Below are positions 45,933-64,000 of a stretch of DNA of 64,000 nucleotides, piece after piece. Under the pieces are notes generated by a model, which saw nothing but the letters and a program-made list of their open reading frames with translations, made no database searches and was not told where the DNA came from. A program made the position numbers and the translations under genes. The stretch comes from Cellulomonas xiejunii (GTDB lineage: Bacteria; Actinomycetota; Actinomycetes; Actinomycetales; Cellulomonadaceae). The stretch is taken from positions 2,790,001 through 2,854,000 of the forward strand of contig NZ_CP101987.1 in assembly GCF_024508315.1 (NCBI RefSeq), given 5' to 3'. Position 1 is the first letter of the stretch; every line of letters starts with the position of its first letter.

Positions 45933-46370
45933 TCAGCGCCCGAGCACCAGGCTGACGGTCACGAACCACAGCCCTGCGCCCACGAGGAGCAGACCCATGA
46001 GGATCAGCAGCACACCGCCCATGGACGACGCGGACGCCCCGGACGACAGCCGCACGGCAGCCGGGTCGCGCGGGTCCACCCACACGGTGATCCGGTCCCC
46101 CTGCTGCGCGACCCGCCCCTGCCCGTTCGTCACCGGCAGCCCTTCGACCCGCCGCGCGCGCAGCCACCCACCGGGCACCGGGTAGTCGAAGGTCACGCTC
46201 GACGGGCGGACGTGGCTCGTGCGGTGCACGACGACCGCCTCGACGGGCACGCGCGACGTCGGCAGGCGCGCGTTGCGGCGCAGCATCACCGCACCCACGA
46301 CGGCGACGGCCGCACCGGTGGCGATGAACCCGACCGCGAAGAGCCCGAACGCCAGCACGCCCATCGTCAC
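45933..46370 (-). CDS. DUF3592 membrane protein
   Basis: A 145-residue protein with a membrane helix at each end (about 5-30 and 118-140) and an extracytoplasmic beta domain between them (VEAVVVHRTSHVRPSSVTFDYPVP...VWVDPRDPAAVRL). This is the DUF3592 layout. It starts 13 bp after the guaA stop, so it is probably co-transcribed. A paralogue lies at 48745-49185, on the other side of guaA. The GTG at 46370 or the ATG two codons later may be the start. Confidence 0.75.
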   Translation of the reverse strand: MTMGVLAFGLFAVGFIATGAAVAVVGAVMLRRNARLPTSRVPVEAVVVHRTSHVRPSSVTFDYPVPGGWLRARRVEGLPVTNGQGRVAQQGDRITVWVDPRDPAAVRLSSGASASSMGGVLLILMGLLLVGAGLWFVTVSLVLGR

Positions 46371-48744: not shown

Positions 48745-49185
48745 CTACGAGGTGAGGAAGACCGTGGTGGCGACCGCCATGACGAGCGCACCGACGCACG
48801 CCATCACGCCGAGGACCATCAGCAGCACACCGCCCGCCCCGGAGGCGCTCCGGGCCCCCGGGAGCCGGACGTCCGAGGGATTCCGGGGGTTCACCCAGAC
48901 CGGGATGCGTTCACCGGGCCGCCGGACCGCGCCGCGCTCACCGGGCGTCGGGACGCCCTCGACCCGGGTGGCACGAGCCCACGAGCCGTCGGGCAGCGGG
49001 TAGTCGAAGGTGATGCGCGCCGGGTCGGTGAACGAGGTCCTCTCGACGACCACGGCCTCCACCGTCACCAACCCGCGCGCGTCCGACGAGCGTCCTGCGA
49101 GTGCCCGCCCTGCGACGAGCATGCCGACCCCCGCCAGGAGGAGCACCACGATGGGGATCGCCCCCAGCACCAGACCGATGGCCAC
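48745..49185 (-). CDS. DUF3592 membrane protein, second copy
   Basis: A 146-residue paralogue of the protein at 45933-46370, with the same helix-beta domain-helix layout and shared motifs (VEAVVVERTSFTDPARITFDYPLP, WVNPRNPSDVRLPG). The GTG at 49185 starts 3 bases after the stop of the small lipoprotein gene, so the two are one unit. The function is unknown. Confidence 0.75.
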   Translation of the reverse strand: MAIGLVLGAIPIVVLLLAGVGMLVAGRALAGRSSDARGLVTVEAVVVERTSFTDPARITFDYPLPDGSWARATRVEGVPTPGERGAVRRPGERIPVWVNPRNPSDVRLPGARSASGAGGVLLMVLGVMACVGALVMAVATTVFLTS

Positions 49186-49506: not shown

Positions 49507-50046
49507 CTACTTCTGCGCGTCGAAACTCAGGCTCGCTTCGATCTGCTCGATGGTCTCGTCGTCGACCTCACCCGTGAGCTGGATCGCCGCAGGCTGTTCG
49601 CGTCCCGCACCGAGCGCCCACAGCACACCCTGTGCCGTCGCCCCGTCCGTGGTCTCGTAGACGTAGCGCGCACGTGCGAAGTCCGCGTCGAGGTCGATCG
49701 GGTCGGGCGTACGCTCGACGACCTCGTACCCCGCCATCGCCGGCATCGTCTCCAGGAGGTGGGCGACGACGAGGCCCGCCTTCGGACCGTTGCTGAGTAT
49801 GTCGTACTCAACGGCGATCGAGGTCACCACGGTGTCACCCTCGACCACCTGCCAGGCGTCGGTCCAGTACTCGCCGCCGCTCTCGGCGCGCTCCCAGCCG
49901 GGCGGCACGGCCAGGCGCAGGGCACCGACCTGCTCGTCCTGCCATCCCTGCGGCACGACGCGGTCGTCGTCTCCACCCGAGCACGCCGCGAGGGACAGGA
50001 CACCGGTGACCATCACGACCACCGCGGCACGAACCGACTTCGACAC
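49507..50046 (-). CDS. 179-residue lipoprotein, copy A of the pilin-like module
   Basis: An exported lipoprotein with lipobox LAAC near residue 22. The mature part starts VVPQGWQDEQVGALRLAVPPGWERAES and ends AIQLTGEVDDETIEQIEASLSFDAQ. It is a paralogue, of identical length, of the protein at 51622-52161. Shared features are P-x-GW, GAL-x-x-AVP-x-x-W, a DAW/VGW segment, an ARYVYETTDG-like strand and (I/L)QLTG near the end. It lies 49 bp downstream of the giant pilin-like gene at 50096, as its paralogue lies near the giant gene at 52624. AAGGAG lies 5-6 bases before the GTG. The function is unknown. Confidence 0.8.
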   Translation of the reverse strand: MSKSVRAAVVVMVTGVLSLAACSGGDDDRVVPQGWQDEQVGALRLAVPPGWERAESGGEYWTDAWQVVEGDTVVTSIAVEYDILSNGPKAGLVVAHLLETMPAMAGYEVVERTPDPIDLDADFARARYVYETTDGATAQGVLWALGAGREQPAAIQLTGEVDDETIEQIEASLSFDAQK

Positions 50047-50095
50047 TGGCACTCCTTCAGTTGACGCATCACGGACCGACGGAACCGCTGCACCC

Positions 50096-51547
50096 TCAGT
50101 CACACTTCGTGTGAGGGAGGAACGGACGCTCCCCGTTCGCGCGCGGCGAACCGAGGAAGTGCGCCTCGGCCACCTGCCGCGTCCCCGTGTTCCCGTTGAC
50201 TTCGAACCCGCCGCCGACGCCAGCGCTGACACCGACACCCGCGCTGCTTGACGTGTCGGTCGCCTCGTACACGTTACGCGAGGTCTTCCCACGCTCGTAG
50301 AGCTCCTGCAGCATCGCGTCCTCAGGAGAAGGCGAGCTGGGGATCACGGGGCTCATGGGGAGCGCGGCGTCGAACCCGCCGTCGCGCACTGCGAGCCACT
50401 CCTCGACGAACTCCCTGTTCTCGTTCGTGATCTCGAGCACCGTCGTGGTCACCACCACGTCGTTGCTGTCGCGGCCGCCACTGAAGGACGGGGACGTGGT
50501 GTGGGGCGCGGCGTGCCGGCCCGAACCCGTCTTGTCGAGCTCGACGTCCAGTCCCATGGTGCCTGACACCCCGCCGCGGGCGACGGTGTCGAAGGTGATC
50601 TCCAGGAGCGCACCGCTCGCGTCACGCTTGACCGAGAGCGATCCTTCGCGCGACACCTGGGCGCTCCCGCCGACGACCACGACGCTCGCCTCGGCGGAGG
50701 CGGAGCCGGTCATCGTGTAGGTCCAGGTCACGCTGTCGTCCTGCGCGTTCCTCTCCCGCTTGACGGAGACGGATCCGGAAGCCTGCGCGGACGCGCCCGC
50801 TGCCGTGATGCGCCCACCCCTCTTCGGGTCGGCGGCCTCGATGTCGCGGTCGACCTTGGCGTTGGCCGCCACCTGGGCCCGCCCTCCGCCCTCGTGGGAC
50901 GTGACGTCCGGCGGGCGCGGCTCGCTCGCTCCCCACCACGAGCCGGCACCCAACCAGCGCCACCCGGACTGGTCGAAGTAGTCCTTCGCGTTGCGCTCGA
51001 ACTCCGGCCACTCGTCCCTCGGGACGATCCACGCGTCACCGTGCTGGTACGTCAGCTCGGCCGATGCCGAGGCAGACACGTCCACCACGCCCCCTTTTCC
51101 CTTGGCCTCGGCCTGGACACCCCCGGACGCACCGTTCGTCACGCGCGCGTGGTACTCGTCGTTGAACTCGGTCACCTGCAGGCCCCAGTCGGCTCCGAGC
51201 TTGACGAAGCCGATGTCGACGCCGACGCCACCGCCCTCCGAGGTCTGCGCGAGCATGCAGACGGGCGGCTGCAGCTGCTCGTCCGTAGGCGGGCCGTCCG
51301 CGGTCACGTCGACTGCGCAGTCACCACCACCGCCGACGACGTCGGTGATCCGGCACAGCGCCGCCTGCGTGTACTCGGGGAAGACGACGACGGAGCCGAC
51401 GACCGCCCCGATCAGGAGCGCGGCGACCACGAGGACACCCTGGAACTCGATGGTCCCCGAACCACGGTCGTCGTGCCACCGTCGATGCGCGCCGACCTCC
51501 TTCGGAGGAACGCGCTCGCCCATGAGGCCATACCGATCGTCGATCAC
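50096..51547 (-). CDS. giant Flp-pilin-like protein, copy A
   Basis: A 483-residue protein. Near residue 28 it has a type IVb prepilin signal: DRG, then SGTIEFQGVLVVAALLIG, with Glu at +5 as in the window's Flp pilin. Instead of ending after about 40 residues it continues with a large extracellular domain of about 400 residues. That domain has conserved cysteines at 65, 77 and 97 (PPVCML) and a penultimate Cys482. It is homologous along its length to the gene at 52624-54057 (GFVKLGADWG, TTTVLEITNENREFV, AHFLGSP). It may be a minor pilin, tip subunit or adhesin of the Tad pilus; that is inference. The start is a GTG 6 bases after TAGGCT, with no ribosome binding site. Confidence 0.8.
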   Translation of the reverse strand: MIDDRYGLMGERVPPKEVGAHRRWHDDRGSGTIEFQGVLVVAALLIGAVVGSVVVFPEYTQAALCRITDVVGGGGDCAVDVTADGPPTDEQLQPPVCMLAQTSEGGGVGVDIGFVKLGADWGLQVTEFNDEYHARVTNGASGGVQAEAKGKGGVVDVSASASAELTYQHGDAWIVPRDEWPEFERNAKDYFDQSGWRWLGAGSWWGASEPRPPDVTSHEGGGRAQVAANAKVDRDIEAADPKRGGRITAAGASAQASGSVSVKRERNAQDDSVTWTYTMTGSASAEASVVVVGGSAQVSREGSLSVKRDASGALLEITFDTVARGGVSGTMGLDVELDKTGSGRHAAPHTTSPSFSGGRDSNDVVVTTTVLEITNENREFVEEWLAVRDGGFDAALPMSPVIPSSPSPEDAMLQELYERGKTSRNVYEATDTSSSAGVGVSAGVGGGFEVNGNTGTRQVAEAHFLGSPRANGERPFLPHTKCD

Positions 51548-51553
51548 GGCGCG

Positions 51554-51559
51554 AGCCTA
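51554..51559 (-). promoter_or_regulatory. -10 box of a leaderless promoter for giant pilin-like copy A
   Basis: TAGGCT on the minus strand, 6 bases before the GTG at 51547, identical in sequence to the guaA box. This module can be transcribed separately from the upstream copy. Confidence 0.55.
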
Positions 51560-51621
51560 GGGGTTTGTCCCGACTCGGCGATGGGCCCAGCGGCTCAAAG
51601 CTGACGCAGGTCGCGGCAGTC

Positions 51622-52161
51622 TCAGCCCTCGTCGACGCGCAGGACGGCGATGCTCTCCTCGATGCCCGCGACGACCTCCGGCGGCAGGTCGCGGCCCGTG
51701 AGCTGCAACCCGACGGCCCGGCCCGAGTCCGGGTCCGACGCTGTCCAGACGACGCCCTCGACGTCGTCGTACGTGAAGTCGTTGCGCTGCACCTCGAGCG
51801 CCGCGGTGTCGACGGGCGTCGACCTGCCCGTGGAGCCGTACCCCCACCCGCCGACCTGGGCGCCCGCGACGAAGGTGTCGAGGGCCTGCTCGGCACCGTC
51901 GTCACCGAGGTCGGCCGCACCGACGACGAGCAAGGAGCCCGGTCCGGGCGCGGCGTCGGTCGACCATCCGACGCCCCACAGGTCGTCCGACTGCGGCACC
52001 TCGACCCAGTCCCCCGGGACGGCGAACGTCAGGGCACCCGACTCGACCCGCTGCCAGCCCTCCGGTGTCGTGAGAGCCACCTCCTCGGGTGCCGCGCACC
52101 CTGCCAGGACGACGCCGAGCACGGCACCGCAGACCGTCACCATCGCCGCACGACGGGCCAC
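51622..52161 (-). CDS. 179-residue lipoprotein, copy B of the pilin-like module
   Basis: An exported lipoprotein (lipobox LAGC near residue 22) with the same length and domain as the one at 49507-50046: TTPEGWQRVESGALTFAVPGDW near the start and VGLQLTGRDLPPEVVAGIEESI near the end. It has an extra Asp/Gly-rich middle (VGAADLGDDGAEQALDTF). The GTG at 52161 starts one base after the upstream stop, with GGAGG about 10 bases before it, so it is co-translated with the membrane protein gene. The function is unknown; a chaperone or anchor for the pilin-like partner is one guess. Confidence 0.8.
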   Translation of the reverse strand: MARRAAMVTVCGAVLGVVLAGCAAPEEVALTTPEGWQRVESGALTFAVPGDWVEVPQSDDLWGVGWSTDAAPGPGSLLVVGAADLGDDGAEQALDTFVAGAQVGGWGYGSTGRSTPVDTAALEVQRNDFTYDDVEGVVWTASDPDSGRAVGLQLTGRDLPPEVVAGIEESIAVLRVDEG

Positions 52162-52162
52162 C

Positions 52163-52591
52163 TCAGACCACCTCCACGTAGGACGACCGGGCTGCCGGCG
52201 CCCAGCGTACGTGGGCGACGGCACCGCCCAGCGCGCCGGTGACGAGCAGGACCAGCGTCGGCACCGCCACATCGAGCACGAGGAGCAGGAGTGCGATGTC
52301 CGCGCGCGCGGCCGCCTCGACGGCGGCCCCGACGGACATGCCCAGCGCCGCCAGGGCCGGTACTGCCACGGCGACCAGACCGCGTCGCCGCGGCGGCCGC
52401 TGTGCGGACCGCGCCGTCGCCACGACGACCGCGATCACGCCTGCGAGCGCGCCGGGGACCACGAGCAGCGGCCAGGCGACCACGACCTCGCCGGAGCCCG
52501 CTGCCAGGACACCGACGAGCACGGCACCCCCCAGCAGAACGCCGACGTACGTCGCTGTCCCTGCCACCCACGCCCACACGAGCCCACGCAT
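52163..52591 (-). CDS. hypothetical four-helix membrane protein in the pilin-like module
   Basis: A 142-residue protein with four hydrophobic segments (about 5-32, 38-58, 70-90 and 98-120) and a short basic/aromatic tail (RWAPAARSSYVEVV). Not recognised. The ATG follows AGGTGGG. It lies 32 bp downstream of giant copy B and one base upstream of lipoprotein copy B. Copy A of the module lacks an equivalent gene. Confidence 0.65.
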   Translation of the reverse strand: MRGLVWAWVAGTATYVGVLLGGAVLVGVLAAGSGEVVVAWPLLVVPGALAGVIAVVVATARSAQRPPRRRGLVAVAVPALAALGMSVGAAVEAAARADIALLLLVLDVAVPTLVLLVTGALGGAVAHVRWAPAARSSYVEVV

Positions 52592-52623
52592 CGTTCCCAC
52601 CTCGTCCCGTCCTCGCCCGACGC

Positions 52624-54057
52624 TCAGTTGCACAGGGCGTCGTCGACCATCTGCCGAGTGCCGTCCTGGCCCGGTGCTCCCAGGAACGACGCGTCCGTCT
52701 TGGTAGCCGTGGCCTCCTCGGCGCTGATGTTGAAGCCGAACTCCCAGCCCTTCTTCACCGCCGCACCGAACTCCCAGGAGTCCTTCACGTTGTGGTAGGT
52801 CACCTGGCTGAGCTTGGCCTTCTCGTACATCAGCTGCATGAAGGGGTCGTTCGACGGCTTCTCCGGGATCATCGCCGCGAACGGCAGCGTGAGGGTCTGA
52901 CCGGCGGCGTTGTCGTCGATCCAGCCCTGCACCAGAGCCCTGTTCTCGTCGGTCACGTCGAGCTTGGTCGTCGTGACCACGGAGCGGCTCTCACCGTCGG
53001 CGAGCTTGCCGTTCGCCGACTTGAACGTGTTGTTGCCCAGGCTCGCGCTGCCCCCCACCTCGTACGCCGACTTGAAGGCGATCTGCGAGAGGTTGCCGCT
53101 CTTGTCGTACGTCGTCGTGAACGCGCCCGTCACCGATCCCTCACCGGTCGCGTGGCCGACCACCATGCTGCCGCCCAGCGTCCCCTTGCCGCTCAGCTCG
53201 TAGGTGTAGCTCTTGGCGCCGGTCTCCTTGTCGTTCATGACGATCACCGAGCCGCCGGCGGTGAGGGAGCCGTTGACGCCCACCTTGGGGTCGATGAGCT
53301 TGTCCTTGCCCTTCTCGTCCTTGCTCGTGCCGGGGATGCGCGTGCCGGCGCTGGCCTTCAACGCGGCCTCGAGCGTGATCTTCGCGTACGAGACCTTCGG
53401 GTCCTTCGGCGCGTCGACCCAGCCGTCGGTCAACGACAGGTAGATCGCCATGCCCGCCGCGCCGCGCCCCTTCATCTGCTCCTGCTGGACGAGGTAGTCG
53501 TCGAGCTGGTCGCGCATCGACTCCCACTGCTCGTTCGAGTCGAACTGCCACGTCGAGCCGTACTCGAACTTCAGGTCGCCACCCAGGCTCACCTCGGCCC
53601 CGGCGTTGTCGCCGTCACCGAGCTTGCCGGCGTCGAACGTCTTGGATCCGACGTTGCCGCTGACGCCGATCCCGGCACCGTCGGTGAGCGTGGCCCGCAC
53701 CGTCTTGTCGGAGAACTCCTGGACGATGAACCCGGAGCTGTCGCTGAGCTTGACGAACCAGATCTTGACCTCGGCGCTGTACTTCTCCTTGGTCTCGGAG
53801 AGCATGCAGACGCCCGGGTGGTAGTCCATGTCGTCCGGGGGCGTGGGGGGTGCTGGGACGTCGCACCCACCGGTGCCGCCGTCGAGCGCCGTCACGACAC
53901 GACACAGGGCCGACGCCGCGTAGGGGGCCACGGTGGTCGTCCCTGCGACGGTGGCCGCGACGAGGATCGCCGCGAGCGCCAGGATCCCCGTGTACTCGAG
54001 CGTCCCCGCACCCTTGTCGCCCACCCCGGCACGCGCCCGTAGGGTCCGCAGCACCAC
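52624..54057 (-). CDS. giant Flp-pilin-like protein, copy B
   Basis: A 477-residue paralogue of the protein at 50096-51547. The prepilin signal lies near residue 16 (DKG, then AGTLEYTGILALAAILV, Glu at +5). It is followed by cysteines 52, 65 and 84 (HPGVCML) and a penultimate Cys476, in the same spacing as copy A. Shared stretches include WFVKLSDSSGFIVQEFSD, SVVTTTKLDVTDENRALV, SLGG/VVGHATGEGS-like beta strands and DASFLGAPG. The beta-rich 400-residue domain matches nothing I can name. The GTG at 54057 has AGGAGG 5 bases upstream, so this copy is not leaderless. It is probably processed by a TadV peptidase outside the window. Confidence 0.82.
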   Translation of the reverse strand: MVLRTLRARAGVGDKGAGTLEYTGILALAAILVAATVAGTTTVAPYAASALCRVVTALDGGTGGCDVPAPPTPPDDMDYHPGVCMLSETKEKYSAEVKIWFVKLSDSSGFIVQEFSDKTVRATLTDGAGIGVSGNVGSKTFDAGKLGDGDNAGAEVSLGGDLKFEYGSTWQFDSNEQWESMRDQLDDYLVQQEQMKGRGAAGMAIYLSLTDGWVDAPKDPKVSYAKITLEAALKASAGTRIPGTSKDEKGKDKLIDPKVGVNGSLTAGGSVIVMNDKETGAKSYTYELSGKGTLGGSMVVGHATGEGSVTGAFTTTYDKSGNLSQIAFKSAYEVGGSASLGNNTFKSANGKLADGESRSVVTTTKLDVTDENRALVQGWIDDNAAGQTLTLPFAAMIPEKPSNDPFMQLMYEKAKLSQVTYHNVKDSWEFGAAVKKGWEFGFNISAEEATATKTDASFLGAPGQDGTRQMVDDALCN

Positions 54058-54302: not shown

Positions 54303-54917
54303 TCACGAGCGGGTGACAGGCACTTCGACGGGTTCGAACCCCGGCAGCCCCAACGTCGCCGTCTCGACCCCCGCCGGCAGCGGCGGGAAGAGCGCGGTGA
54401 GCACTCGCCGGTCACCGTCGAGGCTCAGAGGGAAGTCCGAGCAGGCGCACAGCATGTCGAGCCCGTCCGCGACGTGCGTCATGACGGTGTACGGGCGGAG
54501 AGATGTCGCGGTGGTCTCCACCGTCAGCGTGATGCCCCGGACGTCGCTGAAGGCCGACTCCCCCGGCGTCGTCCAGGACCTGGTCGGTCCCCATCCGGTG
54601 GTGGACCCGTCGCCCGTCGCGACGGTGAACGTCATGTCGGTCCCCGTCGCCGTGGTGTCGAGCGTGAGCACGTCCACGCTGAGCGGTACGCCAGGGTCCT
54701 CCTCGAGGCTGCCCTGGAGCGTCACGAGCGGGGAACCCTCGTCCGCCCCCGCCTGGCCGACCAGGACGCTCTCCGCGAACTCCTCGATCGTCAGCTCATC
54801 GGTCCCCGCGGAAGGGCTGACGGTCCCCGTGCCGGTCGGGTCGGGCGCGCTCGTCGACGTGCAACCGACCAGCGCGAGCACGACGAGGGCGACCGGGAGA
54901 GCCCGGACTCTGCTCAC
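54303..54917 (-). CDS. lipoprotein co-translated with the OmpA protein
   Basis: A 204-residue exported lipoprotein (lipobox LVGC near residue 19, then a Ser/Thr/Pro tether). The beta-rich mature part ends VETATLGLPGFEPVEVPVTRS. Its GTG overlaps the OmpA stop by 4 bases (GTGA). The C-terminal half resembles the last domain of the fused OmpA lipoprotein at 33590-35164 (compare SLRPYTVMTH...LSLDGDRRVLTALFPPLP with RLYPVDYRTD...IDPGETRLVTVVWPDPG). This suggests the two loci carry the same pair, fused in one and split in the other. The role is unknown. Confidence 0.75.
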   Translation of the reverse strand: MSRVRALPVALVVLALVGCTSTSAPDPTGTGTVSPSAGTDELTIEEFAESVLVGQAGADEGSPLVTLQGSLEEDPGVPLSVDVLTLDTTATGTDMTFTVATGDGSTTGWGPTRSWTTPGESAFSDVRGITLTVETTATSLRPYTVMTHVADGLDMLCACSDFPLSLDGDRRVLTALFPPLPAGVETATLGLPGFEPVEVPVTRS

Positions 54918-55999
54918 TGGTCCTCCACCTGGTACGAGATCTCGACACGCCTGTTGATCTGCATGTTCTCAGGCGAGTCGTTGGGGACCGCGGGCTCGCT
55001 CTCGCCCTTGCCGACAGCGGTGAACGTCACGGCGTCACCGGCTGCTCCACGGATCGCCTCGACGACCGCGGCTGCGCGCTGCTCGGACAGTGCCTGGTTG
55101 GAGGAGTCGCTGCCATCGGAGTCCGTGTGGCCGGTGACGAGGACCTCGCCCCTGCCCCGCGCGGCGATGTCCTGCGCGACGCGGGCGAGCACGTCCGTGG
55201 CTGCCGGGGTCAGAACGGCGGAGCTCTTGTCGAACAGCACGTTGGCGTCGAGCGTCGCGTCGACCTGCTGCCCGGTCTCCGCCGTGACGGTCGCGGCGGA
55301 CTCCGACCACTTCACGAGGTCGAAGGTCGCGAGCGTCGGATCAAGCTCGCCGAGCGACGCCCCCGAGGGCACGCGCGGCCAGCCTGTACCCGTCTGCGGG
55401 ACGACCTCGTCGACCACGGGGGCGAGCGCACCCTCCTCGACCGGGAGCCCGAGGACCCCCACCTGCTCACCACCGAAGAACAGGTCGACCACGGCGGTCG
55501 ACGGCGGCAGCTCCGGGAACACGGCGTACATCACGGCCAGCTCACCCGGGTCCGCCTGCAGGTCGAGGACAGGCGATGTCGTGCCCGGCCCGGGCAACGG
55601 TCGGTACGCCTTGCCCCCGTTGCGGTCCACGAGCAGGAGGCTGCTGAAGTTCTCACGCTCGTACGGCGCAACGCCCTGACGTGAGAGCGACGAGCCGTAG
55701 AACTTCTCGTCGAAGCTCGCGGCGATGCCCAGCGACACGTACAGCACCGTGCCGCCGTCCACGCGCCGAACGCCGTGGACGACACCATCGACGGGCGGCT
55801 GCTCAGCCTCGCCCTGCCCACGCGTGGAGAACGTCGCACGCACCGGCACGTCGAGCCCTTCCACCACGACGTCGCCGGGCACGCCGGCCGCGCCGGCGTG
55901 GGCGGCAGAGGCACCAGCGACCAGAGCGAGTGCGACGACTGCGGCCATCCCGCGGACCCCGCGGGCTGCCGGGTGTAGCGCACGACGCCGATGCCTCAT
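54914..55999 (-). CDS. secreted OmpA-domain protein of the Tad locus
   Basis: A 361-residue exported protein. A signal peptide spans about residues 1-37 (ASAAHAG, no lipobox). An N-terminal beta domain (about 40-220) is followed by an OmpA/MotB peptidoglycan-binding domain (about 235-361; VLFDKSSAVLTPAA, VTGHTDSDGSDSSN, LSEQRAAAVVEAI, NRRVEISY). Tad systems of Gram-negative bacteria often carry such a protein. Here, with no outer membrane, it may tie the pilus machine to peptidoglycan. GGAGGA lies 5 bases before the ATG. It overlaps the lipoprotein gene downstream. Confidence 0.85.
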   Translation of the reverse strand: MRHRRRALHPAARGVRGMAAVVALALVAGASAAHAGAAGVPGDVVVEGLDVPVRATFSTRGQGEAEQPPVDGVVHGVRRVDGGTVLYVSLGIAASFDEKFYGSSLSRQGVAPYERENFSSLLLVDRNGGKAYRPLPGPGTTSPVLDLQADPGELAVMYAVFPELPPSTAVVDLFFGGEQVGVLGLPVEEGALAPVVDEVVPQTGTGWPRVPSGASLGELDPTLATFDLVKWSESAATVTAETGQQVDATLDANVLFDKSSAVLTPAATDVLARVAQDIAARGRGEVLVTGHTDSDGSDSSNQALSEQRAAAVVEAIRGAAGDAVTFTAVGKGESEPAVPNDSPENMQINRRVEISYQVEDQ

Positions 56000-56046: not shown

Positions 56047-56781
56047 TCATTGCACGAGCGCCGGCGTCAGCCGACCATCGAGCCAGGACCTCATGGCCGT
56101 GCGCACCGTGTCCGCACTCGGGTCCGGTCCGAAGCTCACCAACGTCGCGCCCGAGTCGGATCGGCACGTGAAGGTGTGGTGCCACCCGTAGATCGGGATG
56201 GGCGGAGGGGGCGGCGTCGGCGACGGCGTCGCTGTCGGCGACGGCGAAGGCGACGGCGTGGGGGTCGGGGTGGGCGTCGGCGGCGGCTGGTACCCGACGA
56301 TGACGCGCTGGCGACCCAGCGTGCATCGATCGAGCCAGACACCGACCTGCGCCTCTGCAGACCGGTAGGTGCTGGTCTCGCCCGCCTCCGGCAGCTCGAC
56401 CTGGACCCGTACCCGGTCACGACCGAGGTCTGCCCGGTAGGAGCCGGGGACGACACGCGTGCCGTTCCGCTCGGCGTACTGCGCGGCGGCCTCGATGCCC
56501 ACCGACGGCGGCAGCGCTGACCCGAGGGTGGTCCCGACGGGGAGCGTCCGCACCGCGTCCAGCGCCGCCTCCCGGACCCGCTGTGCACCGGCCAGCGCCG
56601 CGGCATCAGCTGCCGAGGACGACTCGCCGGCTTGCGCCGACACCTTGAGCAGCGGGAAGACGACCCACATCAGCAGTGCGAGCGCGGCCAGCGTCGTCAT
56701 GATGACGATGGCGGTCGCAGCTGCACCGCGATCGGCCGCTTCCCCCGCGAAGCGTGATCCCCACCATCGACGTACCCGCAC
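56047..56781 (-). CDS. TadG-like membrane-anchored protein with a Pro-rich linker
   Basis: A 244-residue protein. Near residue 20 an ADRGAAATAIVIMTTLAALALLMW helix resembles the N-terminal anchor of TadE/TadG and Rv3654c-type proteins, followed by SSSAADAAALAGAQRVREA, a typical TadG segment. It lacks the pilin Glu at +5. A long TPTPSPSP linker (about 168-195) leads to a 45-residue C-terminal part (IYGWHHTFTCRSDSGATLVSF). I chose the GTG at 56781 because GGAGG lies 8 bases upstream; an ATG at 56820 is possible. It is downstream of flp, beyond a strong terminator. Confidence 0.75.
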   Translation of the reverse strand: MRVRRWWGSRFAGEAADRGAAATAIVIMTTLAALALLMWVVFPLLKVSAQAGESSSAADAAALAGAQRVREAALDAVRTLPVGTTLGSALPPSVGIEAAAQYAERNGTRVVPGSYRADLGRDRVRVQVELPEAGETSTYRSAEAQVGVWLDRCTLGRQRVIVGYQPPPTPTPTPTPSPSPSPTATPSPTPPPPPIPIYGWHHTFTCRSDSGATLVSFGPDPSADTVRTAMRSWLDGRLTPALVQ

Positions 56782-56826
56782 CGGACCGTCCTCCCCGCAT
56801 GTCAACCCGTCACCATCCATGGGACA

Positions 56827-56866
56827 CGTGTGCGCGCCGGGGCGGATCCGCCCCGGCGCGCACACG
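56827..56866 (-). terminator. perfect 40-bp palindrome ending the flp transcript
   Basis: Bases 56827-56846 and 56847-56866 are exact reverse complements (20-bp arms, no spacer). It starts 18 bases after the flp stop. It should form a very stable hairpin that ends or protects the flp mRNA and keeps pilin expression apart from the genes downstream. Confidence 0.9.
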
Positions 56867-56883: not shown

Positions 56884-57099
56884 TCAAGACTCGACGTTCT
56901 TCTTGATGTCGTCGATCCAGTGCTGCACGGTCGACGTCGGGTCCCAGGTCTTCATCGTGCCGACGACCGCCGCGATCAGCAGCGCCGCGATCACCAGGAT
57001 GCCGATGTACTCGAGCGTCCCCTGGCCCTTCTCACTGTCACCCAGCCGCTCGATAGCCTTCTGAACGCGGACCTGCGTGGCGACGAACATGCGAGTCAT
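56884..57099 (-). CDS. flp: Flp-type pilin (type IVb)
   Basis: A 71-residue prepilin, the main subunit of the Tad pilus. The leader ends DSEKG, followed by QGTLEYIGILVIAALLIAAVVG (Glu at +5, Tyr at +6: the Flp motif) and a short polar tail (DPTSTVQHWIDDIKKNVES). The likely TadV/CpaA prepilin peptidase is not in the window. The ATG at 57099 has GGAGCAGAG upstream. It lies 149 bp downstream of the response-regulator gene, enough for a promoter of its own, and ends at the 40-bp palindrome. A TTGACA upstream is too close to any -10 to be convincing. Confidence 0.92.
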   Translation of the reverse strand: MTRMFVATQVRVQKAIERLGDSEKGQGTLEYIGILVIAALLIAAVVGTMKTWDPTSTVQHWIDDIKKNVES

Positions 57100-57248: not shown

Positions 57249-57968
57249 TCACGACCCCTGCGCCGATGGGTACGTCGCACCACCCAGCCACACCGAGACG
57301 GCCTCCGCGCGGGTGCGTACCCCGAGCTTCGCGAAGATGTGGTTGATGTGGTTCTTGACGGTCTTCTCGGACACGAAGCACGTCCGAGCGATCTCGGCGT
57401 TCGTGCGGCCGGCCGACACGAGTTCCATGACCTCGGTCTCACGTGCCGACAGTCCGACGTCTGGCCGCGTGGGGGGCACGTCCTGGACCGGCTGGCTCCA
57501 CGACGCCCGCATGGCCGTGGCCGCGCGCTCCGACAGGACGAAGGAGCCGGACGCGACCGACAGGATGGCCCGCTGGAGGTCCTCGGCGTCGAACGCCCCG
57601 TGGACGAGGTAGCCGCTCGCACCGGCATCGAGGGCTGCGCGGACCACGTCCGGCGTGTCGGCGTACGTGAGCATGAGGATCTTGCACCAGGTGCGCACTT
57701 CTGCGGCGACCTGCACGCCGTCCCGTCGCGGCATCCGCACGTCGAGCAGCACGACGTCCGGCAACGTCGCCCGCACGACGCGGACCGCTTCCTCCCCGTC
57801 CCCCGCCTCCCCCACCACGCGGAAACGCTCCGACGCCGCCAGGAGGCTGCGCAGACCCATGCGGATGACGGGGTTGTCGTCCACGAGGACGACTGTCACG
57901 ACATCCTGCGTGGCACGCCCCTGCGACCCGTTGCCGGTCTGCTGCAGCTGCTGCTCATCCGTAGACAT
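57249..57968 (-). CDS. LuxR-family response regulator of the Tad locus
   Basis: A 239-residue NarL-type regulator. A polar Gln-rich head (1-24) precedes a receiver domain with the phosphoacceptor Asp in VVLLDVRMPRRDG. The C-terminal helix-turn-helix is LSARETEVMELVSAGRTNAEIARTCFVSEKTVKNHI. It overlaps the kinase gene by 14 bases. Its target is likely the flp promoter directly downstream or the tad operon itself. GGGAGTGG precedes the ATG. Confidence 0.92.
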   Translation of the reverse strand: MSTDEQQLQQTGNGSQGRATQDVVTVVLVDDNPVIRMGLRSLLAASERFRVVGEAGDGEEAVRVVRATLPDVVLLDVRMPRRDGVQVAAEVRTWCKILMLTYADTPDVVRAALDAGASGYLVHGAFDAEDLQRAILSVASGSFVLSERAATAMRASWSQPVQDVPPTRPDVGLSARETEVMELVSAGRTNAEIARTCFVSEKTVKNHINHIFAKLGVRTRAEAVSVWLGGATYPSAQGS

Positions 57969-59142
57969 CCACCACTCCCCGCTCGACCGACCCGGACGGG
58001 TCGTGGCTGCCGCGGTGCACCACCTCGACGCGGGTCCCCGCGCCGGGCCGCGACGCGATCCGGACCTGAATGCCGACCTCGGCGGCACGCTCGTGCATCC
58101 CCGTGAGCCCGAAGTGCCCGCGAGGGCTGTGGCCGTCAGGCTCCGGCATGAAGCCCGTGCCGTCGTCGGCCACCGTGATGCGGCAGTCCGGGCCGTCCTT
58201 CTCGAGCTCGACGCGGACCCGCGTGGCGTCCGCGTGCCGGGCCGCGTTCTCGAGGGCCTCACCGATGATCGCCAGGACCTCGTACCGCACGTCGGTCGGG
58301 AGGTCCACCGCGCAGCGAGCGACGACCTCGCACGGCACCCCGTGGTCGGCCTCCCACTGCTGACAGATGTCGCCGAGGACGTCGACGAGCGGGCGATCGG
58401 GCTGATCGGTGCGCATGCGCACGAGGATCTCCCGCGCCTCCTGCGCAGCGGTCTCGGAGGCCTCGGCGAGAGCGATCGCCTGCACCCTGGCCTGCGCAGG
58501 GTCGCGCTCGACCCACAGCACGAGCCCTCGCGCCCCCAGAGCGATCCCGTGCAACGTCTTGCCGAGCGAGTCGTGCATCTCTCGCGCGAGGCGCGCGCGC
58601 TCGTCGGACGCGGCGACGGCCCGCAGGGCCAGGTCGGCGGCCCGGTACGCCGCGACCTGCTCGCGGTGCGCAGCACGCACGGCCCCGCCGATCCCGACGA
58701 GACAGAGGTAGAGAGCGGGCACACCGACATCCAGCATGAACCCGTACTGCTCCACCTGTCCGGTCTGGACGACGAGGACGTACCCCGCTGCGAGGATGGC
58801 GGCACCGACGACCGCGAAGCGCTGCGTCCACAGCATGCCGATCAGCAACGCCGTCGGGAAGGTCGCCAGCACGAGCGGGTTCTCGACCCCCAGCACGGCG
58901 ACGAGTGCCAGGTTGAGGCTGATGTCGACGACGAGCACGAGCGGGTGCTTCCGCAGCACGTCGAGCACCCTGCCGTCGAGCAGGACGCCGAACGACGTGC
59001 CTGCGAGCGCCAGGACGCTCAGCAGGATGGGCGCCGTCATCGTCTCGCCCATGAGACCGAACAGCGCGACGACGATGGCGCCGAGCCGGACGAACATCGC
59101 TGTCGAGACGATGCGGCGGTGGAAGCCCTGGGAAGGCGTCAT
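57955..59142 (-). CDS. sensor histidine kinase of the Tad locus
   Basis: A 395-residue membrane kinase. About six hydrophobic segments span residues 15-160. The HisKA_3 helix has the phosphoacceptor His in LAREMHDSLGKTLHGIALGA. The HATPase domain has the N-box IGEALENAARHA, then VADDGTGF and FGLTGMHERA. It has no large external domain, so it may sense a membrane-linked signal. Its ATG overlaps the tadC stop by 4 bases, tying its production to pilus assembly proteins. Confidence 0.92.
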   Translation of the reverse strand: MTPSQGFHRRIVSTAMFVRLGAIVVALFGLMGETMTAPILLSVLALAGTSFGVLLDGRVLDVLRKHPLVLVVDISLNLALVAVLGVENPLVLATFPTALLIGMLWTQRFAVVGAAILAAGYVLVVQTGQVEQYGFMLDVGVPALYLCLVGIGGAVRAAHREQVAAYRAADLALRAVAASDERARLAREMHDSLGKTLHGIALGARGLVLWVERDPAQARVQAIALAEASETAAQEAREILVRMRTDQPDRPLVDVLGDICQQWEADHGVPCEVVARCAVDLPTDVRYEVLAIIGEALENAARHADATRVRVELEKDGPDCRITVADDGTGFMPEPDGHSPRGHFGLTGMHERAAEVGIQVRIASRPGAGTRVEVVHRGSHDPSGSVERGVVDVYG

Positions 59143-60056
59143 CCGCCCAGCCCTCCCGTCAGCGAGCCGACGTCGATGTCCGCGCCCACCCACAGCCCGA
59201 CGAAGATGAAGATCATCGAGGCCGGGACCAGCACCAGGGACGTCACGAGCGTGACGCGCGGGGCCATGCGCGACGCCGCCTGGCGCTGCCGCTGGCCGCT
59301 GTCGCGTCGCATGTCCTGGGCGATCTGCTTCAGCGACTGCGCGAGCGGTGCACCGAGCTCCTGGGACTGCAGCAGCGCGGAGACGAACTGGCCGACCGGC
59401 TCGGACGAGCTGCGCTGGCGCAGCGCGACGAGCGCATCGCGCACCGAGGCCCCGTTGGTGATCTGGTGCAGCGTGAGCTGCACCTCCTCGCCGAGGGCGC
59501 CGTCGAACCGCTCCGAGACCCGGGCGAGGGCCTGACGGAACGAGACGCCGGCCATCACCGTGACAGCCAGCACGTCGAGGAAGTCCGGGAGGTCGCGGTC
59601 GATCTGCTCACGCCGCAGCCGCTGGCTGCGAGCGAGCTGGCTCAGCGGGAGGACCGCAGGTGCCGCGAACACCAGCGGGACGTACAGCAGGTTGCCCTGG
59701 AGGACGAAGACGACCGCCAGGGGCAGCATCAGGACGAACCACCAGGCGATCCGCTCGAGCAGGCCGTCGACCGTGAGCCCGTCGGGCCGACCAGCCTCGT
59801 CGACACGCTTCTGCAGCGCTGCGAGCCGCCGCGGTCCGAGCAGGCGTCGCAGTCGTGGCACCAGCCGCCGTGCGAGCCGCTGCAGCGGCGAGGTGCCTTC
59901 CGCACGTCGCCGCTGCTGACCGCGCAGGAGGTCGAGGTCCTCGACCGCGAGGGTGTCCAGGGCGTCCGTCCGTAAGGAGCGGTAGCCGACGAGCAGCAGC
60001 AGCGTGGCGGTAGCGGCGACGGCACCGGCGAGCAGCGTCACCACCATCACGTTCAT
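59139..60056 (-). CDS. tadC: Tad pilus inner-membrane platform protein TadC
   Basis: A 305-residue type II secretion F-domain protein. Membrane segments lie near 5-25, 105-145 and 275-297, with the cytosolic GspF domain between (DLPDFLDVLAVTVMAGVSFRQAL, EELGAPLAQSLKQIAQDMR-like). It forms the assembly platform with TadB. Its ATG overlaps the tadB stop by 4 bases and its stop overlaps the kinase ATG by 4 bases. Confidence 0.93.
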   Translation of the reverse strand: MNVMVVTLLAGAVAATATLLLLVGYRSLRTDALDTLAVEDLDLLRGQQRRRAEGTSPLQRLARRLVPRLRRLLGPRRLAALQKRVDEAGRPDGLTVDGLLERIAWWFVLMLPLAVVFVLQGNLLYVPLVFAAPAVLPLSQLARSQRLRREQIDRDLPDFLDVLAVTVMAGVSFRQALARVSERFDGALGEEVQLTLHQITNGASVRDALVALRQRSSSEPVGQFVSALLQSQELGAPLAQSLKQIAQDMRRDSGQRQRQAASRMAPRVTLVTSLVLVPASMIFIFVGLWVGADIDVGSLTGGLGG

Positions 60057-60976
60057 GAGGGGAACCTCGTCATCCGCCTGATCAGCAGGGCGCCACCGAC
60101 GAGGAGACCGCAGCCCACGACCAGCGCCGCCCGTCCCAGCCAGTCCTGGGTCATCTTCGCGACCGTGCCCTCCTGGAGGAAGTTGAGGAGGACCAGGATC
60201 CCCGCCCCCATCCCGACGACGGTGTAGCCGGTGGCCGTCGCCTGCGCCAGGATGGTGCGCACCTCGCGCCGGGTCTCCTTGCGCTGCTCGAGGGTGTCCG
60301 CGATGTCACGCAGCGCGGTGACGAGAGACCCGCCGCTGCGCGACGAGACGAGCAGCGTCGAGGTCAGCACGGACGCCTCCCGCGAGGGCAGGCGTTCCGA
60401 GAGCTCGCCCATCGCGGTCTCGAGGCTCGCCCCGAAGCGCATGCGGTTGGCCACCCGCTTGAGCTCGCTGCCGGCGGGGTCGTTGAGCTCCCCACCCGCG
60501 ACGCCGACGGCGGCCGCGATGGACAGACCGGCGCTCGTCGCGTTCGACAGCACCCGTGCCAGCTCGGGCATCTGCGCGATGAACTGCTCGTTCCGGCGCT
60601 CCCGCGCGCGCCCCAACCAGGTACGCAGACCGATGACCATCGCCGCGACTCCGAGGAGCCCGAACACGGGCGCCAGCAGCACCGCGAGGAGCCAGCCGAA
60701 CACGAGACCCCCGGCCGCGGCGACCCCGGACACGAGCACGGGTGACCGCTCGTCGCCCGCCAGCACGAGCTGGGCCGCCACCCACTTCCCCGCGCGGGTG
60801 CGGGCGTAGGACCTGTCCCAGGCCTCGACGCGGTCCAACCACGTGCCGCCGCCCTGGTCGACGACCTCCAGGACCATCTCGCGTCGACGGTTGCGCACGT
60901 AGAGGACGTCGGCGACCCCGACGACGAAGAGCACCGACGCCGCAGCCACCCCCACGAGGATCATGAGCACCGTCAT
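60053..60976 (-). CDS. tadB: Tad pilus inner-membrane platform protein TadB
   Basis: A 307-residue membrane protein with the T2SS F-domain signature (IAQMPELARVLSNATSAGLSIAAAV, SSRSGGSLVTALRDIADTLEQRKETRREV). Membrane segments are near 5-22, 85-125, 240-262 and 278-298. It partners TadC under the TadA ATPase. It is joined to its neighbours by ATGA overlaps on both sides. Confidence 0.93.
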   Translation of the reverse strand: MTVLMILVGVAAASVLFVVGVADVLYVRNRRREMVLEVVDQGGGTWLDRVEAWDRSYARTRAGKWVAAQLVLAGDERSPVLVSGVAAAGGLVFGWLLAVLLAPVFGLLGVAAMVIGLRTWLGRARERRNEQFIAQMPELARVLSNATSAGLSIAAAVGVAGGELNDPAGSELKRVANRMRFGASLETAMGELSERLPSREASVLTSTLLVSSRSGGSLVTALRDIADTLEQRKETRREVRTILAQATATGYTVVGMGAGILVLLNFLQEGTVAKMTQDWLGRAALVVGCGLLVGGALLIRRMTRFPS

Positions 60977-62364
60977 GAGACCGCAGCCTGACCGGGCGAC
61001 GGGACGCGGCCCGTGGCAGCTCTTGCTGCGGACGCCTGGATCCCGATCGGTTCACCCGCGATCCGGAGCTTGTCAGCGAGCGCTTGGGGCATCGGGTGCA
61101 GCACGAACGTCCCCGGCGTCCCGCTGGGACCCTCCGCCTCAGGGTCCCAGTGCATGATCGGGCGGACCTCGAAGTCCTCGCGATGCCGGGACGCGACCCA
61201 ACCGACCTCGACGACGCGCCGGGTCCCGTCGGAGCCGCGCAGCAGCTGCACGACGATGTCGATGGCGTTGTTCACCTGGTCCCGCAGGGCGTGGAAGGGC
61301 ACGTCGACGTCGCTCATCGACGCCAGCGTCTCGAGGCGGATGAGCGCGTCGACCGACGAGTTCGCGTGCACCGTGGCCAGCGAGCCCTCGTGACCCGTGT
61401 TCATCGCCTGGAGCATGTCCAGCGCCTCGCCCCCGCGCACCTCGCCGACGATCACACGGTCGGGGCGCATCCGGAGCGCGTTGCGGACGAGGTCGCGGAT
61501 CGTGACCTGACCCTGGCCCTCGACGTTCGCCGGCCGGGTCTCGAGCCGGATGACGTGCTCCTGCGAGAGGGAGAGCTCAGCGGCGTCCTCGATGGTGATG
61601 ATCCGCTGGCGGCCCTGGATGAACGCCGACAGGGCGTTGAGGAACGTCGTCTTCCCGGAGGACGTCCCGCCCGACACGACGATGTTGGCCCGCGCACGGA
61701 CGCAGGCGGCGAGGAGCTCGGCGGTGGCGGCGTCGAGCGTGCCTCGACGGAGGAGCTCGTCGAGCCCGTAGGCGCGCGGGAACAACCGGATCGTGACGGT
61801 CGGCCCGTCGAGCGCGAGCGGAGGGAGGACGACGTGCACGCGTGCACCGCGCGGCATGCGCTCGTCCGCAGGCAGACGCGCATCGACCATCGGGCTCGAC
61901 TCGTCGACCCGGCGGTTGACGGTGGACACGATGCGGTCGATCGTCTGCCGCAGCTGCTCCTCCGACGCGAAGGCCGTCCCCACGCGCTCGAGCTGGCCGA
62001 ATCGTTCGACGTACAGCGTGTCATGACCGTTGATCATGATCTCCGAGACCGTCTCGTCCGCGAGCAGCGGCTCGAGGACACCGAGCCCGATCGACTCGTC
62101 CACGACACGCCGGATGAGGGCGTTGCGCTCACGCGTCGTCAGGATGACGCCCTCGGTGGACACGAGGTGCGCGACCACGCGCTCGAGCCGCACACGGCGC
62201 TGACCCGGTTCGAGTCGGCCGAGCTCGTGGAGGTCGACCTCGTCGAGCAGCTTGCGCTTGAACTGCCCGACGAGCTGCTCGTCGAGCTCGGACCGCGCGA
62301 AAGGGCTGCTGGTGACGGCCTGCTGGGCCGGAGGGTCCTGCGAGAACTCGGTGTACCCGCTCAT
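60973..62364 (-). CDS. tadA: Tad pilus assembly ATPase TadA/CpaF
   Basis: A 463-residue cytosolic hexameric ATPase that powers pilus assembly. Walker A is [15 protein letters not shown], the Asp box is [10 protein letters not shown], and the Walker B/His box region is [31 protein letters not shown]. The N-terminal domain has [16 protein letters not shown]. The ATG at 62364 overlaps the TadE stop by 4 bases; the open frame upstream runs through tadE and was rejected. Confidence 0.95.
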
Positions 62365-62711
62365 CGTCCCGTCCTCGGCATCGCGACCTCCCGGGCGACG
62401 GTGATCGGGGGGAACATGCTGACCCGCCGGACGTCGAGCTGGACGCGCACGGTGTCCGGCGCCGGGTAGGTGATCCGGCCGTCGAGGTCGCCCGGCAGCG
62501 AACGGTCGACCGCCGCCCGGACGTCCAGGCTCAGGCTGCGCGCACGGGCTCCGTCGCGGGCCGCCTGCCCGGCTGCGTCGACCGCGATGGCGAACCACGC
62601 CGCCTGCACGATGCACACGAGGGTGATCGCTATGAGGACGACCCCTCCGACGGCCTCGATCGTCGAGGTCCCCCGGTCGCCGCGGGAGAGCCTGCGTCGC
62701 AGGACGGTCAT
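62361..62711 (-). CDS. tadE: TadE-like pseudopilin
   Basis: A 116-residue minor pilin. The short basic head LRRRLSRGDRG is followed by TSTIEAVGGVVLIAITLVCIV (Glu at +5) and a small extracellular domain. It overlaps the TadZ-TadE fusion gene upstream and tadA downstream by 4 bases each. Confidence 0.88.
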   Translation of the reverse strand: MTVLRRRLSRGDRGTSTIEAVGGVVLIAITLVCIVQAAWFAIAVDAAGQAARDGARARSLSLDVRAAVDRSLPGDLDGRITYPAPDTVRVQLDVRRVSMFPPITVAREVAMPRTGR

Positions 62712-64000
62712 GGCTCGAGCACCACCTCTCGGGACATGGTGATCTTCCAGGGCGACGACGCGAGACCCGGCGCGAGGATCGGCACGTGCGTGCTGACCGT
62801 CACCCGACGACCGGTCGCGTCGCGCGAGACCTCGAGACCGCCGTGCATCGCCGACGGCATCGCGTCCTCGGCCGCTTTGCGCACCTCGTACGAGGTCGCC
62901 TGCAGTGCGGTCTCCCGCGCCGCCGAGCTCGCTGCGTACCCGGTCCAGACGAGCGTCAGAGCGACCACGACCATCTGGACGAGCGCGGCGCCCATGATCA
63001 CCAGCCACGGCATGACGCCGACGAACTCGAGGGACGCCGAGCCGTCGTCCCGCCCCGAGCGCCGGCGCCCTGTGCGCGACGCCGGGTCCGGCGTGCCGTC
63101 GGGGGTCGTCACGCGGGCCACGCCGAGCCGTCGCCCGAGCGCGCGGACGACCTGCCACCAGGCGACGTCGGTGACGTACTCGGGAGACCGGGAGTTCACC
63201 GCACGCTCGACCTTGCGCCCGAGGTCCGGCAGACGCTCCTCGAGCAGAGGGCTCGGCGACAGGCGTGCCAGGGTGTCCGGCTGGATCTCGTCGGCGCGGT
63301 TGTGGCGGTTGAGGACGACGAAGGTCCCTTCCGGCTTGCGGACCGACAGCGTCTCCCAGGTCGCGACGTTGCGACGCAGGGCACGCACGCTGACGAGGTC
63401 CGGCGTGGCGACCGCCACGACCTCGTCGGCGATCTCCACGACCGCAGCCTGCAGCGGCGTGACGCGCGCACCCACGTCGATCACGATGAGGTCGTACTGC
63501 TGCCGCACCAGGCCGACGATCTGCCGGATCGCCCGGGGCGTCACGTGCTCGACCTCACGCACGTCCTCGGGCGGCAGCAGCAGGTGCAGGCCTGACTCGT
63601 GCTCGTAGATGGCGTCGGCGACCGTGCGGAAGGACAGGTCGTCCGACACCTTCGCGAGGTCGGCGATCGACGTGCGGTGGCGGGCCTCGATGAAGCTGGA
63701 GACGTCGCCCTTCTCCAGGTCGAGGTCGATCAGCAGGACGCGGTGCGAGGGGAGCTCGCGTCGCACGTCCCAGGCCAGGTGCGTCGCCAGCGTCGTGGCA
63801 CCGACACCTCCCTTCGTGCCGGCGATCGCGAGCACGAGCGCCCGGTGTCCGCCCTCCCCGGCGTTCTGCTCGATCAGGAGCGACTGGAGACGCAGCGACC
63901 AGTCGATCGCGTTCGTGATGCGCTGCTGCACCTCGGCGAACGACAGCGGGTAGGTGAGGAGCCCTCGTGCTCCCGCGTCGGTCGCGGCTGCGAGCGTCTC
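62708..64000 (-). CDS. TadZ/CpaE ATPase fused to a TadE-like pseudopilin segment (partial)
   Basis: At least 430 codons; the 5' end lies beyond the right edge. The visible start is the end of a receiver-like domain (ETLAAATDAGARGLLTYPLSFAEV). A MinD/CpaE ATPase follows, with the deviant Walker A GTKGGVGATTLATHLA and RVLLIDLDLEKGDVSSF. After a basic linker (RTGRRRSGRDD) the same frame continues into a TadE-like signal (DDG, then SASLEFVGVMPWLVIMGAAL, Glu at +5) and a roughly 90-residue extracellular part. TadZ is cytosolic and normally a separate protein, so the fusion is unusual. A GTG at 63931 is internal, not the start. Confidence 0.85.
   Translation of the reverse strand, partial: ETLAAATDAGARGLLTYPLSFAEVQQRITNAIDWSLRLQSLLIEQNAGEGGHRALVLAIAGTKGGVGATTLATHLAWDVRRELPSHRVLLIDLDLEKGDVSSFIEARHRTSIADLAKVSDDLSFRTVADAIYEHESGLHLLLPPEDVREVEHVTPRAIRQIVGLVRQQYDLIVIDVGARVTPLQAAVVEIADEVVAVATPDLVSVRALRRNVATWETLSVRKPEGTFVVLNRHNRADEIQPDTLARLSPSPLLEERLPDLGRKVERAVNSRSPEYVTDVAWWQVVRALGRRLGVARVTTPDGTPDPASRTGRRRSGRDDGSASLEFVGVMPWLVIMGAALVQMVVVALTLVWTGYAASSAARETALQATSYEVRKAAEDAMPSAMHGGLEVSRDATGRRVTVSTHVPILAPGLASSPWKITMSREVVLEP

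Follow-up and report, generated by a model that had tools for sequence, protein, structure and literature searches.

Giant pilin-like proteins and their partner lipoproteins beside a Tad pilus locus of Cellulomonas xiejunii

Giant pilin-like proteins next to the tad locus

The window analyzed here is a stretch of 64,000 nucleotides from Cellulomonas xiejunii (contig NZ_CP101987.1, positions 2,790,001 to 2,854,000), and the subject of this work is a group of five genes that follows a tad pilus locus and encodes two large pilin-like proteins (here called giants), a membrane protein and two lipoproteins. All lie on the minus strand, in the order type A giant of 477 residues (52624-54057), multi-pass membrane protein of 142 residues (52163-52591), type A lipoprotein (51622-52161), type C giant of 483 residues (50096-51547) and type C lipoprotein (49507-50046). 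Because the gaps between them are only about 1 to 75 bp, the five genes look like a single operon.

Both giants begin with a prepilin leader, with the predicted cut site between DKG and AGTLEY in type A and between DRG and SGTIEF in type C. In type A the leader comprises residues 1-16, ending in Lys-Gly, with E21 at position +5 and a hydrophobic helix extending to about residue 45 (53923-54057, minus strand). The two proteins have Gly at -1 and Glu at +5 followed by about 25 hydrophobic residues, like the 71-residue Flp pilin of the locus, and differ at +6, which is Tyr in type A and Phe in type C. These features agree with the Flp/Tad (type IVc) signal, defined by Gly at -1, Glu at +5 and about 20 hydrophobic residues, but the small size and the absence of a globular domain that characterize major Flp pilins are not found in proteins of 477 and 483 residues; judged by sequence, the giants are not major Flp pilins. 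They align with each other end to end (29% identity, E 7e-44).

The large domain of about 400 residues in either giant had no match among Pfam or NCBIfam families, and only chance nanobody matches came from searching PDB sequences with a profile of the giants. Neither giant matched the Tad/TadE families at E up to 1, and homology to TadE, TadF or TadG was therefore not supported. Both lipoproteins are exactly 179 residues long, with the lipoboxes VLAGC (type A) and SLAAC (type C); pairwise they align over 64 residues only (E 5e-7), but their homology is clear in the family alignment. A preliminary description of this DNA had proposed the prepilin signals, the paralogy of the giants along their length, the one 179-residue lipoprotein per giant, the paralogy of the lipoproteins and the lack of a recognizable family for the large domain, and this description was confirmed.

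The membrane protein is an additional gene of the type A unit, placed between giant and lipoprotein, with counterparts of about 135-160 residues in relatives. In Cellulomonas timonensis it is fused to the lipoprotein (L040:9398-10534 / L026:11183-12319), the junction carrying the peptide MCIRDS; this fusion is probably an adapter-derived assembly artefact, and it was excluded from the structure alignment.

The tad locus itself precedes the giant units on the same strand, in the order TadZ-like, TadE-like, TadA, TadB, TadC, kinase, regulator, Flp, TadE/G-like, OmpA-domain protein and lipoprotein. The machinery (57249-63931) was recognized from sequence and includes a TadZ/CpaE-like protein, TadE-like pilins, the TadA/CpaF ATPase, TadB, TadC, a histidine kinase and a LuxR-type regulator. 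It is followed by the 71-residue major Flp pilin (56884-57099; weak match to PF04021, Class III signal), a candidate TadE/TadG-like minor pilin (56047-56865; weak matches to Tad PF13400 and TIGR03816), an OmpA-domain envelope protein (54914-55948; PF00691, E 5e-15) and, adjoining the latter, a separate lipoprotein of 204 residues (54303-54917) that falls outside the giant-linked lipoprotein family. A prepilin peptidase A24 gene (PF01478) was found elsewhere in the genome. Two paralogous small membrane proteins (VEAVVVxRTS...ITFDYPxP) are encoded downstream and upstream of guaA, at 45933-46370 and 48745-49185.

Paralogues, distribution and pairing with lipoproteins

A whole-genome search located a third tad-side giant, type B, 2.5 kb past the window on the other strand (L024:2569-3965), together with its own intact lipoprotein of 184 residues (L024:3998-4552). 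Homology breaks off close to the end of the type B frame, and the C terminus that matches is continued in another frame; the gene is apparently frameshifted near the C terminus, although a sequencing error would have the same appearance. Relatives carry intact type B copies, and Cellulomonas sp. B6 has types A, B and C in tandem with one lipoprotein each. In another genome of the class, four giants lie beside three Flp genes of identical protein sequence (region of L127:9995-11551). A fourth, unlinked C. xiejunii copy between rpoC and rpsL (L025:4410-5864) has only the N-terminal module in common with the giants; its C terminus is a calpain protease (PF00648, E 2e-17), and three small lipoproteins are encoded downstream.

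Among 68 distinct giants, C52, C65, C84 and C476 are each conserved in 67 or 68, whereas G16 is kept in 52 and E21 in 54, the remainder being nearly all gaps from truncated or miscalled starts. The 477-residue protein was matched in 12 of 150 genomes sampled from the family, and the giant profile in 22 of 297 sampled from the order. A single-protein scan of genome contigs gave no match, and a profile scan gave nine named loci, the closest named relatives found being mostly Cellulomonas. When 60 genomes from the genus were compared, the set of 18 with profile matches was identical to the set with TadB homologues. Because short profile matches include ordinary Flp pilins, full-length giants were taken as the meaningful count: they were found in 17 of the 18 tad-positive and 0 of the 42 tad-negative genomes, where tad-negative means no homologue of the locus TadB at E 1e-10, a definition that a very divergent Tad system would escape. 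The giants are thus a near-constant component of actinobacterial Tad loci of this kind. In some relatives the type A giant is 78-84% identical while the major pilin is 51-59% identical (84% versus 59% in G725). Type A identities cluster in two ranges, at 78-84% and at about 50%, whereas TadB shows little variation, which suggests that modules have been exchanged.

Simple BLAST was too weak to evaluate the pairing of giants with lipoproteins, and the evaluation relied instead on profiles and distance matrices. Within three genes, 46 of 70 giants had a lipoprotein belonging to the giant-linked profile family, and 64 of 70 had a lipobox protein of some kind; only one such lipoprotein was found away from a giant, in loci that were chosen around giants. 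Giant and lipoprotein distance matrices were strongly correlated (Mantel r=0.93, 56 pairs), and when paralogues were swapped within a locus, none of 5000 permutations reached this value (maximum 0.84). These comparisons argue for co-evolving, cognate pairs of giant and lipoprotein and not merely for shared genome descent. The preliminary description had called for a survey of this pairing in actinobacterial loci and had depicted a duplicated unit of giant plus lipoprotein. The pairing is borne out by these numbers, and the picture of two copies of a two-gene unit is refined by the additional paralogues and the membrane protein of type A.

Predicted folds and reuse of the N-terminal module

AlphaFold, run on 15 sequences for the 477-residue giant, predicted a fold with one helix leading into 12 long antiparallel strands, with a mean predicted local distance difference test score (pLDDT) of 68 (strands mostly 70-90) and a predicted template modelling score (pTM) of 0.63. 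The strands form a putative barrel-like module at residues 85-462 (52672-53805, minus strand), between C84 and C476. The best VIA-align match was the 12-stranded autotransporter barrel EspP (Z 18.4, root-mean-square deviation (rmsd) 2.8 over 218 residues), followed by NalP (Z 17.9, rmsd 2.5 over 219 residues). We therefore regard the domain, with moderate confidence, as a predicted 12-stranded autotransporter-like β-barrel, and the 483-residue giant is presumed to have the same fold by homology. The likeness to the EspP and NalP translocator barrels (12 predicted strands, rmsd 2.5-3 over about 220 residues) is one of fold only, in that no outer membrane is expected here, identity is 6-8%, a prepilin head replaces the passenger and no Pfam match to the autotransporter β-domain family was obtained with the giant. 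FadL and CymA porins topped the Foldseek list, but homology to them was not accepted at template modelling (TM) scores of 0.1-0.3, and the 12-strand topology alone was retained.

C84 and C476 flank the module, and a disulfide joining the first and last strands of a closed barrel would fit the conservation of these cysteines. The strands are amphipathic, and conservation is slightly higher on their hydrophobic side than on the polar one. This leans toward a soluble barrel, although hydropathy could not separate soluble from membrane barrels.

The type A lipoprotein model (pLDDT 88.6) was closest to CyanoP (Z 14.2), with further matches to SciW/EagT6 (Z about 10), LpqN (9.0), Tli4/TplEi (8.3-9.6) and Tsi3 (8.2). 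The lipoprotein thus combines a lipobox with a PsbP/Mog1-like fold that is predicted and not solved. It resembles LpqN, MTC28, the Eag chaperones, Tsi3 and Tli4 in this predicted fold, and LpqN also in membrane anchoring; unlike these proteins, the giant-linked lipoproteins are tied to giant pilins, and their profile matched no solved PDB chain by sequence.

The preliminary description had missed that the N-terminal module of the giants also occurs on calpains, SGNH hydrolases and polymorphic toxins. Gly and Glu of the signal are invariant in an alignment of 24 rows over the first 60 residues (prepilin signal, helix and two cysteines), and, when plain Flp pilins are counted, the module was matched in 106 of 297 genomes from the class. 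It is found on SGNH/GDSL hydrolases, each with a lipoprotein neighbor, and, in other Actinobacteria, on a PT-HINT pretoxin (L084:5813-7330) and on a PT-HINT plus colicin D protein (L134:4463-5914), with small genes adjacent to these carriers. More PT-HINT proteins lie in or near tad loci (L133:5288-7171 and L136:6529-10593), one with a BURPS668_1122-type deaminase; some of the N termini in this set were assigned by motif and gene-calling, and the called starts of L136 show no clear pilin head. A barstar gene (L089:7823-8191; PF01337, E 8e-20) was also seen within a tad locus, immediately ahead of a giant pilin, and no barnase partner was seen for it.

A calpain search of the genus gave eight full-length matches, all in tad-positive genomes. 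These pilin-headed calpains lie between rpoC and rpsL (L025, L175, L179, L180, L182, L183, L185 and L188), with one to three small lipoproteins downstream. In contrast, four tad-negative genomes have related calpains that align only from residue 104-113 onward and have no pilin head (L191:2834-4237, L192:2676-4073, L193:2750-4219 and L194:2690-4159). Their N termini look helical and adjoin a WXG100/EspC-like gene (weak matches, E 0.2 and 0.002). A DUF6406 protein is encoded downstream of one of them, and weakly DUF6406-like lipoproteins also follow pilin-headed calpains. It seems from these sequences that related cargo switches between a type VII secretion system (T7SS)-type and an Flp-type head to suit the secretion machine present, the T7SS assignment being tentative.

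Proposed role of the giants and alternatives

The interpretation that we favor, and hold to be the more probable one, is that the giants are modular Flp-type (Tad) pilins with cognate membrane-anchored lipoproteins and that their N-terminal module is a Tad-linked carrier. They have the architecture of modular pilins, with a common N-terminal pilin part fused to a separate module and exchangeable C termini. The prepilin peptidase would cut the giants after Gly16 or Gly29, and the hydrophobic helix would then be inserted in the Tad filament or placed at its tip, leaving a bulky, disulfide-stapled, β-barrel-like module exposed outside the cell. Before assembly, the PsbP/Mog1-fold lipoprotein could bind this module at the membrane, either to protect it or as a chaperone for its loading; the type A unit would add the small membrane protein, and the same N-terminal module would be reused as a Tad-linked carrier of enzymes and polymorphic toxins. 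We infer that the giants are probably tip subunits, possibly with the role of pilus-tip adhesins, and that a protein with the N-terminal module is probably one that the pilus displays or delivers.

Pilins of modular design have been described before and are widespread (PMC8179133, PMC6916266). PilB and PilC of the monoderm Streptococcus sanguinis likewise join an N-terminal pilin part to a bulky C-terminal module thought to be tip-exposed, but they have an IPR012902 pilin signal and a small globular pilin part (PMC8179133), whereas in the giants the pilin part is of the Flp/Tad type, the barrel-like module belongs to no known sequence family, and each protein has a cognate lipoprotein. Variable domains have also been described on the Tad tips of Myxococcus, whose KilL, KilM and KilN (TadE/F/G-like) form a set of large, paralogous minor pilins that expose such domains and are predicted to contain disulfides (PMC12075869). 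The Kil Tips are TadEFG-type heterotrimers, whereas neither giant is recognized by a Tad/TadE Pfam model and both adjoin separate TadE/G-like genes. No description of the giant and lipoprotein module was found in the literature searched, most subscription journals being outside its coverage.

Several points weigh against this interpretation. Confidence in the barrel is moderate, since the five models average pLDDT 49-68 and the Foldseek TM-scores by query length are just 0.1-0.3. The tad-positive genome G694 has no full-length giant, and the co-occurrence counts are uncorrected for phylogeny. In addition, the predicted minor pilins TadE/F of Micrococcus luteus were not detected in sheared pili (PMC4322843), and minor Flp pilins may therefore stay in the membrane.

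The main rival, made serious by the other proteins that share the N-terminal module, is that the giants are Tad-delivered effectors whose barrel attacks neighbor cells, for instance by forming a pore, while the lipoprotein serves as a surface immunity protein. The toxins on the same module with their adjacent small genes, the barstar gene within one tad locus and the one-to-one co-evolution of lipoprotein and giant would all suit it, as would the intact type B lipoprotein beside an apparently frameshifted giant and the occurrence of the PsbP/Mog1 fold in the type VI secretion system (T6SS) immunity proteins Tsi3 and Tli4/TplEi as well as in Eag chaperones. As in polymorphic toxin systems (PMC3482391), other members of the family have a common N terminus, interchangeable C termini and an adjacent partner gene, and it is at the level of the family only that a common trafficking module with varied C termini is seen. 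Unlike such toxins, the 477- and 483-residue modules match no toxin domain in Pfam or NCBIfam, a search that new domains could escape, and they are near-constant in tad-positive genomes, and the type A giant is in some relatives more strongly conserved than the major pilin, contrary to what fast-changing toxins would show; the conservation of the strand faces also leans away from a membrane barrel. We consider this rival unlikely, if deserving of attention. The available text of a 2012 survey of polymorphic toxins (PMC3482391) has no mention of prepilin or pilus, and a 2025 paper (PMC12605009) mentions once, in passing, that some ARC toxins are fused to Flp pilins. A broader scheme, in which the actinobacterial Tad pilus delivers proteins on contact with a target, the Flp-type module is a general trafficking module for polymorphic toxins and the giants are dedicated tip subunits, membrane-inserting barrels that breach the envelope of the target and are restrained at home by the lipoproteins, is speculative and a little less likely still.

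More doubtful again is the view that the pilin-like segment is a membrane anchor only, with the giants staying bound to the membrane at the cell surface and never becoming part of a pilus. A single hydrophobic helix would be enough for an anchor, and the M. luteus result agrees with this. Against it, nearly every homologue whose start is intact retains the prepilin signature, giants occur only alongside the Tad machine in the genus sample, and the calpain domain is pilin-headed in tad-positive genomes only. The new wall-anchored fiber raised in the preliminary description can be set aside, as the proteins show no sorting signal and were found only with the Tad machine.

Monoderm Tad pili are poorly understood and were believed to need very few parts. 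With the giants read as modular Tad pilins, a near-constant giant modular pilin and its cognate lipoprotein would supply likely missing parts of these pili, and the reuse of the N-terminal head on enzymes and toxins, together with the apparent head swap of the calpains, makes Tad-dependent display or delivery in harmless soil bacteria directly testable.

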